Assembly (NCBI RefSeq): GCF_013410875.1
Contig: NZ_JACCCU010000002.1
Coordinates: forward strand, 434,001 to 498,000
DNA: 64,000 nucleotides
Direction of reading: 5' to 3'
Source: Tunturiibacter empetritectus
GTDB lineage: Bacteria; Acidobacteriota; Terriglobia; Terriglobales; Acidobacteriaceae
Part shown: positions 9,538 through 50,058 of the stretch, one piece after another
How the letters are laid out: every line of letters begins with the position of its first letter
How positions within the stretch are numbered: position 1 is the stretch's first letter
The notes under the pieces: generated by a model
What the model saw: only the letters and a program-made list of their open reading frames with translations
What the model was told of the DNA's origin: nothing
Databases searched by the model: none
Translations under genes and position numbers: made by a program

Positions 9538-10596
9538 CTATCGCGCATCCGCGTAGTATCCCGTTCGATACCGCAGATCATACTTCGCCTTTAGCTCCGC
9601 ATCCGTCATCCTTACCTTGATCTGCCGAAACGAACTATCCGCCCCCCGCCGCGGCGCATAATACCCCAGCAGATACTGCGTCCGCAGGTCATCCGACACA
9701 TGCGCAAACGCCGGCTCCAGATCCTTCGGGTCCACCACGTAGTAGTACTTCCCACCCGTATCCTCGGCCAGTTGAATCAGCGCATGCTCCCCGCCCGTAT
9801 TCCTGCCCGCATCCGCATAGATCGGCACAATAATGATCGAGTACACCATCGCCCCCGCCCTCTGCGCCTCCTCTAGCGCCTGCGTATAGCGCGCCCCTTT
9901 CACCGTATCGCCGCCATCGGTGATCAGCACAATCACCCGCCTTCGCCCATTCGCAGCCGAGGTCCCCGCCAGCCTATCCGACGCCAGATAGATCGCGTCA
10001 TACAACGCCGTAGCGTCTCCATGCTGAATCGCATTCAACCCGCTCTCAATCCGCTTCGGCTGATTCGTAAACGGCACAAGCTCCCGCACCACATCCGAGA
10101 ACTCCATCAGGTCCAGCTCGTCCTGCTCCCGCAGCAGCGCCCGCACAAAGTGCTTCGCCGCCTCCTTCTCCAGCCGCTCACTGGTCATCACGCTCTCACT
10201 CGCATCAATGGCAAGCACGATCGACAGCGGCGTCGTAGCCTCTTTCTCAAATACAGCGATCTTCTGCAGCTTCCCATCCTCAAGAATCTGGAAGTCCTCC
10301 CGCTCCAGCCCACCCACCGGCGAACCCTTCGTATCCACCACGTTCAACGCCACATTCACCAGCCGCGTCTCCACCCTGATCGTAGGAAATCCGCCCTCAG
10401 GAGTCCCCGCAGAACCATTCGCCTTGCCACCCGTCTGAGTCTGAGTCGCCACCGCAGGCGGTGTCTGCACATCCTCCGGATCCTTAGGCGCCTGCGCCCC
10501 CACCGCCGGAGGAGGCTGCCGCACCACCGGAGCCTGCGACAACAGATCCCCCCGCACCAGCACGAGCCCAAGCAGAGCCCCAACCAGCACTCTCAC
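9538..10596 (-). CDS. secreted VWFA-related protein
   Basis: A 352-residue protein: signal-type N-terminus (LVGALLGLVLVRG), a Pro/Ala/Gln-rich linker to about residue 70, an Ig-like segment (TRLVNVALNVVDTKG ... LEREDFQILEDGK), then a VWA domain with an intact MIDAS (DASES, plus LITDGGD). The C-terminus LRTQYLLGYYAP ... LRYRTGYYA is the hallmark of the acidobacterial VWFA-related family. It starts with GTG overlapping the moaE stop by four bases (GTGA), so its translation is probably coupled to moaE. Role unknown; likely exported. Confidence 0.85.
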   Translation of the reverse strand: MRVLVGALLGLVLVRGDLLSQAPVVRQPPPAVGAQAPKDPEDVQTPPAVATQTQTGGKANGSAGTPEGGFPTIRVETRLVNVALNVVDTKGSPVGGLEREDFQILEDGKLQKIAVFEKEATTPLSIVLAIDASESVMTSERLEKEAAKHFVRALLREQDELDLMEFSDVVRELVPFTNQPKRIESGLNAIQHGDATALYDAIYLASDRLAGTSAANGRRRVIVLITDGGDTVKGARYTQALEEAQRAGAMVYSIIIVPIYADAGRNTGGEHALIQLAEDTGGKYYYVVDPKDLEPAFAHVSDDLRTQYLLGYYAPRRGADSSFRQIKVRMTDAELKAKYDLRYRTGYYADAR

Positions 10597-11327
10597 CGTG
10601 CGCCTCCACCCTCGACCTTCGCCACAGAACCGGGTGCCCGATACATCGCTTCTGATATATCGGCATCGTCCGTAGAAGCATGACCGCCGGGTCCCGCCGT
10701 CTCGCCGACTCGCTGACTCGCTAACCCACCGGGTGCCCCATCCTTTCGCGGTTTCATCGCGATAGGGTGGGGTATTCGCGCCGGTAGGCGCGAACCGCTC
10801 TCCTCCCCAAGCCCATCCGCCCCGCCCAAAACCAACGCCTCGGAAGCGCCCTCCGTCTCGCTGACTCGCTGACTCGCCAACCCGCCAACCCCGCCAACCC
10901 GCTGCTCCTCAGGGAACGGCTCCCCATCCGCCCACACCGCCCCATCCACAAACTGTTCTTTCTTCCAGATCGGCACCATCTTCTTCAACGTATCGATCAG
11001 CCACCGGCAAGCCTCAAACGCCGCACCCCGATGCGCCGAAGCCACCACAATCAGCACACTGGTCTCCCCTACATAAAGCCGCCCCAGACGATGCACCAGC
11101 GCCACATCCCGTACGCCAAACAGCTCCACCGCCTCGCCCGCCAACCCGCGCATCTTCTCCAGCGCCATCTCCCGATAAGCCTCATAGTCGAGATACAGCG
11201 TCTTCCGTCCCCGCGTATTATCCCGCACAATCCCGTCAAACACGCACACCGCGCCGTCCGCAGCAGCTTTGATCTCCGCCGCAATCTCCGCCGACGCAAT
11301 CACCTCATCTGTAATCTCAACCCGCAT
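10593..11327 (-). CDS. moaE: molybdopterin synthase catalytic subunit MoaE with repeat-derived tail
   Basis: The first ~142 residues are a full MoaE: RDNTRGRKTLYLDYEAY, VALVHRLGRLYVGE, VVASAHRGAAFEACRWLID and the catalytic-lysine region LKKMVPIWKKEQF, ending near ADGEPFPEEQ. It transfers sulfur from MoaD to precursor Z to make molybdopterin. The remaining ~102 residues (coding bases 10596-10901) correspond to no MoaE sequence; they are translated dispersed repeats of families A and E (LASQRVSETEG; GEESGSRLPARIPHP). The frame stays open to a GTGA overlap with the VWA gene. Start: ATG 11327 with GAGGT upstream; ATG 11351 is possible. Confidence 0.9.
   Translation of the reverse strand: MRVEITDEVIASAEIAAEIKAAADGAVCVFDGIVRDNTRGRKTLYLDYEAYREMALEKMRGLAGEAVELFGVRDVALVHRLGRLYVGETSVLIVVASAHRGAAFEACRWLIDTLKKMVPIWKKEQFVDGAVWADGEPFPEEQRVGGVGGLASQRVSETEGASEALVLGGADGLGEESGSRLPARIPHPIAMKPRKDGAPGGLASQRVGETAGPGGHASTDDADISEAMYRAPGSVAKVEGGGAR
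10629..10690. repeat. dispersed repeat family A, copy 2 (inside moaE)
   Basis: CCGGGTGCCCGATACATC ... GATATATCGG, a 10-bp stem (10638-10647 with 10653-10662) with one wobble pair, then AAGCATGACCGC as in copy 4. Lies within the moaE frame. Confidence 0.75.
10730..10828. repeat. dispersed repeat family A, copy 3 (inside moaE)
   Basis: GGGTGCCCCATCC, an inverted repeat around CATCGCGATAGGGTGGGG, then ATTCGCGCCGGTAGGCGCG and AACCGCTCTCCTCCCCAAGC. It is almost identical over ~90 bp to the intergenic copy at 48329. Translated within MoaE. Confidence 0.9.
10857..10905. repeat. 8-bp degenerate tandem repeat (family E)
   Basis: Consecutive units CTGACTCG, CTGACTCG, CCAACCCG, CCAACCCC and relatives. 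Shorter copies lie at 10698-10728, 48462-48492 and 48606-48650. This copy and the one at 10698 are inside moaE. Confidence 0.75.
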
Positions 11328-11353
11328 CCCATACCTCAAACCCATACTCAACC

Positions 11354-11450
11354 TTTGTCATTCTGAGCGGAGCGAAGAACCTCCGCATTTTGCTTTTGCC
11401 TTTGCTTTTGCCTTTGCCTTTGCCTCTACCTCTACCTCTACCTCTAAACA
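11354..11450. repeat. family B repeat with adjoining T/G/C microsatellite
   Basis: GTCATTCTGAGCGGAGCGAA ... CCGCATTTTGC is followed by alternating CTTTTGC/CTTTGC units and then four TACCTC units. It sits immediately upstream of moaE, between moaD and moaE. Confidence 0.8.
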
Positions 11451-13679: not shown

Positions 13680-13737
13680 CTGGATACAGCTGGGCAAAGA
13701 TGGGCAAACCAGCAACACCCGTAATCATTTTCAACAG

Positions 13738-13795
13738 CCGGGTGCTTCATATCTCGATTTTGAGATGTGGGCCTCATGCGAAGCATGACCGCTTT
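13738..13795. repeat. dispersed repeat family A, copy 4
   Basis: CCGGGTGCTTCATATCTCGATTTTGAGATGTGGG followed by AAGCATGACCGC; stem arms CATATCTC and GAGATGTG pair with one wobble. It fills the gap between the converging GlxA-type and DUF6321 genes. Confidence 0.75.
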
Positions 13796-13796
13796 C

Positions 13797-14216
13797 TCAA
13801 GACTCCTTCGCCGCACGATACTTCTCCAACAGCTTCCTCCCCCTAGCCGCTAATTTCTTCGCCGCAGCCTCCGTCTTCGGCACAGCCTCGCCCCACGCGT
13901 GTGCACTCAGTGCCAACCGCGTCGGTTCTCCATCCTTCATCATCGGCCCGCGCGGATGCGTAAAGTGCCGCGTCAAAAACGATCCCTTCCTCCGCATCTT
14001 CTCCGGAGTATCCGCCTCGCCCTTCACTCCCGGCTTCAGATTCGCACCCTCTGTCTTCTTATAAAACTCCCGCCCCGCCGCCGTCAGCCCGCCCTTCGGA
14101 TCCTTCCCCTTCGCAGACATCGACTTCGCCGCGCTCTTCGTTGCAGACTTCGCGGCGCTCTTCGTTCCTGACCTCTTCACCACACTCTTCGCACTTGGCT
14201 TTTTCACATTTGGCAT
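13797..14216 (-). CDS. DUF6321 domain protein with Lys/Ala/Ser-rich head
   Basis: A 139-residue basic protein. Residues 1-38 are low-complexity (KRSGTKSAAKSATKSAAKS), similar in composition to histone-H1-like tails. Residues ~40-139 form DUF6321: GGLTAAGREFYKKTEGANLK, KGEADTPEKMRRKGSFLTRH, HPRGPMMKDGEPTRLALSAH and a Lys-rich end. Function unknown; the composition suggests nucleic-acid binding, which is inference. Relatives of this compact domain are common in soil bacteria. Confidence 0.85.
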   Translation of the reverse strand: MPNVKKPSAKSVVKRSGTKSAAKSATKSAAKSMSAKGKDPKGGLTAAGREFYKKTEGANLKPGVKGEADTPEKMRRKGSFLTRHFTHPRGPMMKDGEPTRLALSAHAWGEAVPKTEAAAKKLAARGRKLLEKYRAAKES

Positions 14217-39835: not shown

Positions 39836-40405
39836 ATGGCACACATCCAACTCCCCGAAGGTCTTCCCGGCATACGCGGCGCAATGGCCTTCCGTCCCGC
39901 CACCGCAAGGCCGCTCAACGACCTCGTAGAAGTCCTCCTCCACGGCCCCAACTCCCTCACCCCAGGCGAGCGCGAACTCATCGCAACCTACGTCTCCTCC
40001 GAAAACGACTGCTACTACTGTCAAACCATTCACGGAGCCATAGCCGCAGCCAGCCTCAACGGTGACGAAGCCCTCGTCAAACAGGTCAAGCACGACTTCC
40101 ACAACGCTGCCATCTCCGAAAAACTAAAGGCTCTCCTCGTCATCGCCGGCAAGGTACAGCGCGGCGGCAAGCACGTCACCACCGAAGACGTAGCCGCCGC
40201 CCGCGCCCAGGGCGCAACCGACATCGAGATCCACGACACCGTCCTCATCGCCGCCGCGTTCTGCATGTTCAACCGCTACGTCGACGGACTCGCCACCACA
40301 CAGCCCCGCGACGAAGCCATGTACCGCGAACGCGGCAAGTGGATCGCACGCGACGGATACGTCAACGTCAGCAAGGAATATCTACCAGCCGAAGCCGCAC
40401 ACTAG
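39836..40405 (+). CDS. carboxymuconolactone decarboxylase / AhpD-like protein (copy 1)
   Basis: A 189-residue peroxidase-related AhpD-like protein. The active site SSENDCYYCQTIHG (CxxC-x3-H with upstream Glu) is complete; the rest includes LTPGERELIATYV and HDTVLIAAAFCMFNRYVDGL. It likely forms a thiol-dependent peroxide or nitrosating-species defence. AAGGA precedes the ATG. The next gene is a paralogue (over 60 % identical by eye), so this is a tandem duplication. Confidence 0.9.
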   Translation: MAHIQLPEGLPGIRGAMAFRPATARPLNDLVEVLLHGPNSLTPGERELIATYVSSENDCYYCQTIHGAIAAASLNGDEALVKQVKHDFHNAAISEKLKALLVIAGKVQRGGKHVTTEDVAAARAQGATDIEIHDTVLIAAAFCMFNRYVDGLATTQPRDEAMYRERGKWIARDGYVNVSKEYLPAEAAH

Positions 40406-40498: not shown

Positions 40499-41047
40499 AT
40501 GCCCCACATCAAACTACCCGAAGGCTTCCCCGGCATCAGCAGCGGATTCGTCTACCGCCCCGAAACCGCCAAGCCCATGCGCGAACTCGCCCACGTCCTC
40601 CTCCACGAGCCCAGCACGCTCACCCCCGGAGAGCGCGAACTCATCGCCACCTATGTCTCCAGTCAGAACGACTGCTACTTCTGCCAGACCAGCCACGCCT
40701 CAGCAGCCGCCGCGCACCTCGGCAACGATTGGGGTCTAACCGAACAGGTAAGACAAAACTACGAACAGGCCCCCGTCTCAGACAAACTAAAAGCCCTCCT
40801 CACCATCGCAGGCAAGGTTCAACAAGGCGGCAAGCACGTCACCTCAGAAGACATCGCAGCCGCCCGCGAACAAGGCGCAACCGACCTCGAGATCCATGAC
40901 ACGGTCCTGATCGCCGCCGCCTTCTGCATGTTCAACCGCTACGTCGACGGCCTCGCCACCTGGCAACCCGAAGACCCAGCGATGTACGCCAAGATGGGCC
41001 AACACCTGGCCACCGAAGGCTACCTGGCCCCCTCCATAAAAGCCTAA
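40499..41047 (+). CDS. carboxymuconolactone decarboxylase / AhpD-like protein (copy 2)
   Basis: A 182-residue paralogue of the preceding gene, with the same active-site arrangement SSQNDCYFCQTSHASA and the same C-terminal block HDTVLIAAAFCMFNRYVDGL. AGGAG lies just upstream of ATG 40499. A family C repeat separates the two copies, so the duplication did not remain a tight operon. Redundant or slightly different substrate range is likely. Confidence 0.9.
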   Translation: MPHIKLPEGFPGISSGFVYRPETAKPMRELAHVLLHEPSTLTPGERELIATYVSSQNDCYFCQTSHASAAAAHLGNDWGLTEQVRQNYEQAPVSDKLKALLTIAGKVQQGGKHVTSEDIAAAREQGATDLEIHDTVLIAAAFCMFNRYVDGLATWQPEDPAMYAKMGQHLATEGYLAPSIKA

Positions 41048-46210: not shown

Positions 46211-46984
46211 ATGACCCGCCGCCGCTGGATCGCCGACACCTGGACCCCTACCACCGCATCCCTCACCGGCGACCAGGCCGCCCACCTCGCCCGCGTCCTC
46301 CGCGCCGAACCCGGCCAGATCTACGACGTCGTCTCCAACGGCTTCCTCCACCGCGCCGAAATCCTCACCGTCTCCGAAAAAGAAGTCCTCTTCACCCTCC
46401 ACGAAGAGCTCCAGTCCGACGCCGCCCTCCCCCTCCATCTCCTCCTCGCCGTCTTCAAGTTCGACCACATGGAGTGGGCCATCGAAAAAGCCACCGAACT
46501 AGGCATCGCAAAGATCACACCCATCCTCGCCCGCCGCACCGAAAAGCACCTCGCGCAATCCGCTCTCAAGCGTTCCGAACGCTGGCGCCGCATAGCTCTC
46601 GAAGCCAGCAAGCAATCCCGCCGCACCGACATCCCCGAGATCGCCGACCCCACCCCACTGAAGTCCGCCCTGGAAAGCGAAAAATCCCCCACCCGCATCC
46701 TCCTATCCGAAACCGAGCAGACCCAAACCCTGACCGCCGCCCTCGAAGGAGCATCACCCGCCACAAAAGACCGGGTGCCCCATCCTTCGCAGTCTCACCG
46801 CGAAGGGTGGGAGGTAGACCGTCAAACCGCCTTAGCCATAGGCCCCGAAGGCGGCTGGACCCCCGAAGAGATGTCCCTCTTCACCACCCATCAATGGCAG
46901 CCCGTCACCCTCGGCCCCCGCATCCTCCGCGCCGAAACCGCCGCCATAGCCGCCATCGCCATAGCCGCCACCCACCTCGCCTAA
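46211..46984 (+). CDS. rsmE: 16S rRNA m3U1498 methyltransferase RsmE with repeat-derived loop
   Basis: A 257-residue SPOUT methyltransferase that methylates U1498 of 16S rRNA. The PUA-like head contains LTGDQAAHLARVLRAEPGQI; the SPOUT part has KFDHMEWAIEKATELGI, ALKRSERWRRIALEASKQSR and the knot motif AIGPEGGWTPEE with LGPRILRAETAAIAAI. Between strands a family A repeat (46771-46812) is translated as RVPHPSQSHREGWEVDR. The insert falls in a loop just before the IGPEGG knot, so activity may be kept. The ATG has no clear ribosome site. Confidence 0.93.
   Translation: MTRRRWIADTWTPTTASLTGDQAAHLARVLRAEPGQIYDVVSNGFLHRAEILTVSEKEVLFTLHEELQSDAALPLHLLLAVFKFDHMEWAIEKATELGIAKITPILARRTEKHLAQSALKRSERWRRIALEASKQSRRTDIPEIADPTPLKSALESEKSPTRILLSETEQTQTLTAALEGASPATKDRVPHPSQSHREGWEVDRQTALAIGPEGGWTPEEMSLFTTHQWQPVTLGPRILRAETAAIAAIAIAATHLA
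46771..46812. repeat. dispersed repeat family A copy inside rsmE
   Basis: CCGGGTGCCCCATCCTTCGC then CTCACCGCGAAGGGTGGGA, arms CCATCCTTCGC and GCGAAGGGTGG pairing across a short loop. Same core as 10730 and 48329, without the downstream extension. Confidence 0.85.
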
Positions 46985-48200: not shown

Positions 48201-48654
48201 TAGCCCATCCAGCAAGCGGTCAGCGCCCCCACCACAAAGCCGTCATCGACCGAGCACCAAAGCTTCATAGTGAGATGCGCAAGAGAGGCTCCCGCATCCT
48301 GCCTTTGCTCCCTGCCAGCCGTCCCAAGCCGGGTGCCCCATCCTTTCGCGGCCTCATCGCGATAGGGTGGGGTATTCGCGCCGGCAGGCGCGAACCGCTC
48401 TCCTCCCCAAGCCCATCCTCGCTCCAAAGCCACAAAACGTCACCGTCGCGCTGACCAGTTTCCAGCTGACTAGCTAACCCAGCTGACCGCAGTTTCTTTG
48501 TTGTCATCCCCGAAGGGGATTTGCGTCTGCTGTTGCAGTTGCACTTGCACTTGCACTTGCAGTTGCTTTTGTCATTGCACCTGCGTTGCCGTTGCTCGTC
48601 TTTTACGCTAACCCGCTAACTAGCTAACCCGCTGACCACCTGACTCGCTGCCTC
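48201..48654. other. 454-bp gap made of stacked repeats
   Basis: No gene. Contents in order: family A copy 6 (48329-48420), 8-bp family E units (48462-48492), family C variant (48500-48536), a microsatellite of TTGCAC units (48537-48566), and a second family E run (48606-48650: CTAACCCG, CTAACTAG, CTAACCCG, CTGACCAC, CTGACTCG) that ends at the dnaJ stop. An open frame reads through the family A copy here just as in moaE. Confidence 0.85.
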
Positions 48655-49914: not shown

Positions 49915-49953
49915 ATCGGGTGCCCCATCCATCGCGTTCCTGCGATGGGTGGG
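49915..49953. repeat. dispersed repeat family A, copy 7
   Basis: TCGGGTGCCCCATCCATCGC GTTCCTGCGATGGGTGGGA; arms CCATCCATCGC and GCGATGGGTGG pair, with loop GTTCCT. Confidence 0.8.
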
Positions 49954-50058
49954 AAAGTACGCCTTCACTCAGCCGCATCTTGTCGTTGCTCTTGCCCTTT
50001 TCCTGTCATCCCGCAAGCATTTATTTCTGTCGTTGCAGTTGCAATTGTCTTTGCCTCT

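Follow-up and report, generated by a model that had tools for sequence, protein, structure and literature searches.

The repeat-built tail of MoaE in Tunturiibacter empetritectus: very probably a tolerated by-product of a mobile palindromic repeat system

In Tunturiibacter empetritectus the moaE gene does not end with its folded domain; its frame runs on through repeated sequence until it overlaps the following gene, which raises the question of what the resulting tail is, how it arose and whether it is read as protein. We have investigated this question in a 64,000-nucleotide stretch of the genome (contig NZ_JACCCU010000002.1, positions 434,001 to 498,000), referred to throughout as the window, and in related genomes. 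The tail is very probably a tolerated by-product of a mobile system of repetitive extragenic palindromic (REP) elements and a REP-associated tyrosine transposase (RAYT); the observation made in the initial annotation of the window is confirmed and its interpretation is partly supported. The source genome is denoted G000, a second genome of the same species G008, and further genomes of the genus carry other G-numbers. The genus comparison covered 62 genomes, 58 of which have MoaE; counts of tails and overlaps rest on these 58, loci L108-L140 (mostly distant MoaE) being excluded. A separate search identified Edaphobacter and Granulicella as the nearest among named genomes.

The moaE tail and its variation within the genus

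The Pfam MoaE domain spans residues 13-124 (profile positions 1-113 of 114, E 1.2e-36) and is therefore complete, and the 17 solved MoaE chains that were matched align as far as residues 132-143, in agreement with the initial placement of the domain end near residue 142. Sixteen columns are invariant in 41 MoaE sequences, including H105, R106, K121 and K128. In an AlphaFold2 prediction made with 41 sequences, the predicted local distance difference test score (pLDDT), averaged over 10 residues, is 80 in the first block and 91-98 over residues 11-140, falling to a mean of 65 at residues 141-150 and to 45-56 past residue 150. The frame that had been described as open past the core to a GTGA overlap with a gene for a von Willebrand factor A (VWA) domain protein was confirmed as a tail of 110 codons (Table 1). 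The tail contains GEPFPEE, runs of 8-bp units on either side of a two-hairpin family A element, then a family B hairpin, and a short end in which GGAGG is located six bases upstream of the VWA start. Of the two family A repeats originally reported in the tail one is indeed family A, but the other belongs to the related family B, which shares the GGTGCCC head of family A and differs in the stem; the arrays reported as family E tandem units are present and are recast here as 8-bp units. The same tail, of 107 codons, is observed in G008, the differences amounting to one 9-bp indel and five substitutions.

Table 1. Features of the moaE region and related elements, in window coordinates
Feature	Position	Strand	Remarks
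moaE with long tail	10593..11351	-	252 codons from TTG; 250 from ATG at 11345
MoaE core	10926..11351	-	Pfam MoaE and pLDDT
Repeat-derived tail	10596..10925	-	110 codons, predicted disordered
GTGA shared by moaE stop and VWA start	10593..10596	-	
VWA-domain gene	9538..10596	-	TIGR03436
GGAGG within tail	10603..10607	-	likely ribosome-binding site of VWA gene, judged from sequence
Family A REP-like element, two hairpins	10729..10804	+	antisense reading ...IPHPIAMKPRKDGAPG
Family B REP-like hairpin	about 10630..10672	+	antisense reading DDADISEAMYRAPG
8-bp unit array	about 10693..10724	+	
8-bp unit array	about 10849..10890	+	site of 9-bp indel, G000 vs G008
Intergenic family A copy	48329..48418	+	97% identity over 90 bp to 10729-10818
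Intergenic REP-like copy	49917..49960	+	
In-frame REP-like element within rsmE (46211-46984)	46771..46815	+	

Alignment of related MoaE sequences, proposed initially as a check, gives tails of 11-24 residues in 43 of the 58 genomes and of 37-110 residues in the other 15. Labelled by motif, eight of the long tails contain REP-type peptides, five contain in-frame repeats of MoaE's own terminus (ADGEPFPEG type) and two are of other kinds, one of these holding SQRVSE-like units. The eight REP-tailed genomes (G000, G008, G013, G014, G031, G010, G011 and G048) have tails of 69-110 residues, all open to the same overlap. Within the close clade families are exchanged at one position in the tail, with like flanks and in frame: G000 and G008 carry family A there, and G013, G010, G011 and G048 carry family B. 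The close sisters G015 and G018 have a MoaE tail of 17 residues. Self-end repeats lengthen the tails of G023, G046, G006, G052 and G016 (L044, L047, L049, L050 and L057), reaching 62 residues in G052 versus 18 in its near relative G041. On a quick tree built from the MoaE core and VWA sequences the tail labels need nine changes (REP two, self-duplication five, other two) and fewer are forced by well-supported branches alone (REP one, self-duplication two, other two), so that the number of tail origins is approximate, because 19 of the 55 inner branches are open and two rows are very long-branched.

The moaE stop and VWA start form an NTGA overlap in 50 of the 58 genomes; there is none in seven, and no VWA match was found in one. 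Most moaE genes with this overlap have tails of 11-24 residues. Thus, the overlap predates the tail, and as an ancestral feature it provides no evidence specific to the tail being read. The initial suggestion that ribosomes read the tail stands as likely, because the frame is free of stops before the overlap, but the coupled overlap on which the suggestion had leaned was rejected as specific proof. Insertions between the core and the overlap preserve the coupled arrangement only if they are in frame and free of stops. Among the eight genomes in which no overlap was seen, the spacers of G061, G043, G059 and G019 look, by eye, repeat-bearing after the stop; repeats may enter the moaE/VWA junction whether they are read as protein or not.

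Dispersed elements, the RAYT gene and inserts in other genes

The elements in the tail are members of dispersed families. The 50-bp core of family A has two matches in the window at up to 3 mismatches and none in 100 shuffles, and the near-unchanged element noted earlier in the intergenic gap at 48329 was recovered. The 11-mer shared by families A and B, GGGTGCCCCAT, is present in 58 genomic copies as compared with one for the control, the reversed 11-mer, and every one of the 62 genus genomes contains at least two copies (controls 0-3). Folding of the copies as hairpins gave z below -2, relative to mononucleotide shuffles, for 52 of the 58. All but one (57/58) lie on whichever strand is locally C-rich, in one orientation relative to GC skew; the skew is below zero in every one of the eight 8-kb blocks of the window, though genes are present on both strands. 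This replication-locked orientation agrees with insertion coupled to the replication fork, as described for IS200/IS605 relatives (PMC6006769). A degenerate family B copy at 13738-13797 lies beside the gene at 13797, and this family B copy is kept in both G000 and G008.

A candidate transposase is present in the source genome, in which two Y1_Tnp genes were detected. One of these, at C2:315675-315989, is a RAYT (PF01797, 41.5 bits against a cut-off of 23) with the HUH motif as NHVH and a tyrosine in YIHRNP, and family A elements flank it in a single orientation, one partial and one complete copy immediately upstream and a second complete copy immediately downstream; no family elements were seen beside the second Y1_Tnp gene (locus L190). 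Relatives of this RAYT, counted at E 1e-20, are found in 38 of the 62 genomes, with 97% identity in G008, 70% in G039 and at most 62% in the rest. With up to 14 candidates scored per genome, family A matches reach at least 14 only in G000, G008 and G039, the holders of the three closest RAYT relatives, the numbers elsewhere being 8 in G048, 7 in G045, 7 in G061, 3 in G044 and 0 in G043. In the broad sense these are REP elements, with many dispersed copies, a stem-loop and copies beside a RAYT gene.

The genome search for in-frame repeats proposed in the initial annotation revealed that MoaE is one of several hosts. With genes in the source genome called by a home-made hexamer gene caller, 15 of the 58 11-mer copies lie wholly inside called genes and in frame, 10 in sense and 5 in antisense, in 12 genes, and one more overlaps a start. 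This count gives no measure of the share of insertions that disrupt genes. Seven host genes were identified by comparison with solved structures, RsmE, PheT, MnmG, XerC/D, IscS, RecG and MoaE; the other five we take to encode a Nei/Fpg-like glycosylase, an ABC-F protein, two ArnT-like transferases and a membrane protein. In the best alignments the inserts of RsmE, PheT, XerC/D, IscS and RecG are unmatched to solved chains, and the MnmG alignment is gapped at its insert.

Occupation of these sites varies between genomes. Distances between fixed anchors were surveyed at 30 loci per gene for IscS, PheT and XerC/D, of matches in 61-62 genomes. Long inserts occur in 11 of the 30 loci for IscS (at least 99 nt), in 8 for PheT (at least 108 nt) and in 8 for XerC/D (120-126 nt), the remaining loci having 12-45, 36-57 and 42-78 nt, respectively. 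Exact REP end motifs are present in 9/11, 6/8 and 5/8 of the long inserts and in none of the short loops (0/19, 0/22 and 0/22). IscS of G015 and that of G018 are one family B element apart, with flanks 90-92% identical, and the RsmE site is filled in G000, G008 and G031 and empty in G013, G014 and G010.

Three of the host genes show further repeats. RecG (L224:1305-3869, G000:C2 near 353 kb) contains two ADSSAALRN-type blocks besides its REP-like element, and two separate stretches, of about 130 and about 70 residues, find no match in solved RecG 1gm5; it appears to have another repeat family read in frame. In MnmG (L229:1585-3660, G000:C3 near 378 kb) an in-frame SASQRVSESAGQRW resembles the GACTCGCT-type 8-bp units of the MoaE tail. 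The insert of PheT (L234:1260-3821) contains, after its first REP-like peptide, another one, PGAPHVAASPSRVGHRDS.

Origin of the tail and alternative explanations

The preferred explanation is that a RAYT-type transposase would spread short palindromes genome-wide, in an orientation fixed relative to replication, most copies landing between genes and some in protein loops or tails able to bear extra residues. The stretch of moaE from the folded core to the conserved NTGA overlap is probably one such tolerant spot, which has also been lengthened by 8-bp arrays and, elsewhere in the genus, by in-frame duplication of its own end. The need to read the core, together with conservation of the overlap, would hold filler at this position in frame; since only insertions that remain open to the overlap would leave the moaE/VWA pair intact, ribosomes probably read this filler as a disordered tail.

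Constraint appears to differ between the core and the tail. Between G000 and G013, changes at first, second and third codon positions number 2, 5 and 17 in the core and 14, 14 and 17 in the tail, third positions accounting for 17/24 and 17/45 of the changes, respectively. The contrast between core and tail was significant in three pairs that include G000 (Fisher p 0.012, 0.025 and 0.004). Tail residues appear weakly constrained, and the tail, predicted to be disordered, is probably a tolerated passenger that is translated and would be neutral.

Two weaker rivals have to be considered. A selected, functional extension of MoaE, for instance an interaction arm, could account for the presence of long tails in 15 of the 58 genomes, produced by at least three kinds of growth, and for a frame that is open in all eight REP-tailed genomes. 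We consider this unlikely, as the codon positions of the tail change almost evenly, length within the REP group varies and families are swapped at one site, the tail is predicted to be disordered, and G015 and G018 manage with 17 residues. An action at the RNA level, in which the hairpins would tune mRNA decay or the MoaE/VWA ratio and the peptide would be incidental, appears equally improbable. The centroid fold shows local hairpins, several of the eight REP-tailed genomes retain a hairpin of either family at a shared position, and such roles are described for REPs (PMC3733652). However, the RNA of the whole tail folds no better than shuffles (z 0.11), 50 of the 58 genomes have no REP-type peptides in the MoaE tail, and similar elements are present in many unrelated genes. 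An RNA element as such was rejected, since the tail contains neither an Rfam family nor a terminator-like site and its fold is not below that of shuffles. The least credible explanation, an open frame produced by assembly or by chance in GC-rich repeats, which do favour chance frames and assembly errors, is very nearly dismissed by the agreement of G008 with G000 in frame and sequence and by the stop-free run to the overlap in all eight genomes, at least one other forward frame having stops in each, and fails unless all genomes share one error; the hidden stop that had been named as a refutation is ruled out by G008 and the six further genomes with repeat-built tails.

Several observations weigh against the origin of the tail as a tolerated by-product of a REP/RAYT system. 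With respect to the tail, the codon-position contrast is not significant for the pair G013-G014 (Fisher p 0.20), and two of the tail alignments contain out-of-phase stretches, 271/309 bases being in phase for G000-G013 and 231/252 for G000-G031, so that some of the aligned bases are not homologous; translation of the tail, judged from sequence, is likely. The overlap is absent or was not seen in 8 of the 58 genomes, so that coupling is not essential. With respect to the inserts, the 15/15 that are in frame are so partly by construction, because the gene caller would miss, as a whole gene, any that a repeat had disrupted. Near 13731 G008 is ~230 bp longer than G000, a difference that includes family A and is not one clean element. 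With respect to the transposase, G010, G012, G015 and G031 have inserts and 8-34 copies of the 11-mer with no RAYT match at E 1e-20, and G043 holds a 57% RAYT relative, yet has no family A matches. The association between RAYT and repeat is therefore correlative, and we infer from sequence comparison that this RAYT may have mobilised the elements.

Relation to known elements and further observations

In-frame REPs are described in Opitutus terrae, Thauera and others, among them copies at coding-region ends and pairs within one gene, with RAYT association for the GTAG class, and TIR-associated (TIRYT) transposases of acidobacteria are catalogued in the same paper (PMC3733652). The intragenic GTAG and CGTC REPs described there resemble the present elements in the RAYT association of the GTAG class. 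They differ in that the element here lacks the GTAG foot tag, its families swap at one protein site between related species, and the MoaE tail precedes a conserved gene overlap. GTAG was absent, by eye, at the stem foot in the printed element strings, and the element is not a GTAG REP; CGTC is present in the second hairpin of some family B copies, but the main stem is longer than the 8-9 bp of CGTC REPs, which have a loop of 4-5 bases and no transposase, and family A is accompanied by a transposase. REPtrons and TIRtrons (PMC3733652) likewise have a Y1 transposase gene with a dispersed repeat close on both sides, whereas the flanking copies here are direct and inspection of the element by eye did not reveal the GGGGWSAS motif; the comparison is one of description. 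REPINs are also non-autonomous hairpin elements associated with RAYT; they are inverted REP doublets at random extragenic sites (PMC3116915), whereas the copies here are single or direct and partly intragenic.

In Rickettsia, palindromes occur in frame in unrelated housekeeping genes, where they are apparently tolerated (PMC10969869, PMC2229807, PMC6649704). These Rickettsia palindromic elements (RPEs) share with the present elements in-frame insertion in unrelated conserved genes, here 12 called genes, a likeness of description. RPEs measure 105-146 bp compared with about 45-90 bp here, and the present host lives free in soil and has a RAYT gene between copies of the element. No published intragenic copies in this genus were found among the literature matches listed, as judged by title and start of abstract. 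In-frame REPs are thus already known; what is unusual here is the repeated occupation of, and exchange at, the same protein sites.

Particular protein loops and tails in this genus may, tentatively, be regarded as recurrent landing pads of palindromes that a RAYT drives: at given codons of essential enzymes, different families would insert, displace each other and degenerate in different species, with gene overlaps and the orientation locked to replication setting the peptide that each gene gains, a proposal that we rate as possible but rather doubtful. If it is true, a free-living bacterium would have in such landing pads a steady supply of new protein segments under the control of orientation. 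In this free-living genus, with dozens of sequenced species, the same essential genes have sites that are filled in some species, empty in others or exchanged between families, and a candidate transposase is present; the frequency with which mobile hairpins are taken into proteins, their cost and any use made of the inserts are testable in it. Annotated MoaE, PheT, MnmG, IscS and RecG of this group should be treated with caution, as they contain repeat-derived segments.

Two further kinds of repeat were observed in the window. Tandem units of 6/12 bp, of the TTTGCC and TTGCAC types, occupy the intergenic positions 11389-11425 and 48533-48589. A 245-bp direct repeat at 40080-40324 and 40743-40987, with 80% identity and a spacing of 663 bp, falls in two neighbouring called genes and is a tandem gene duplication.
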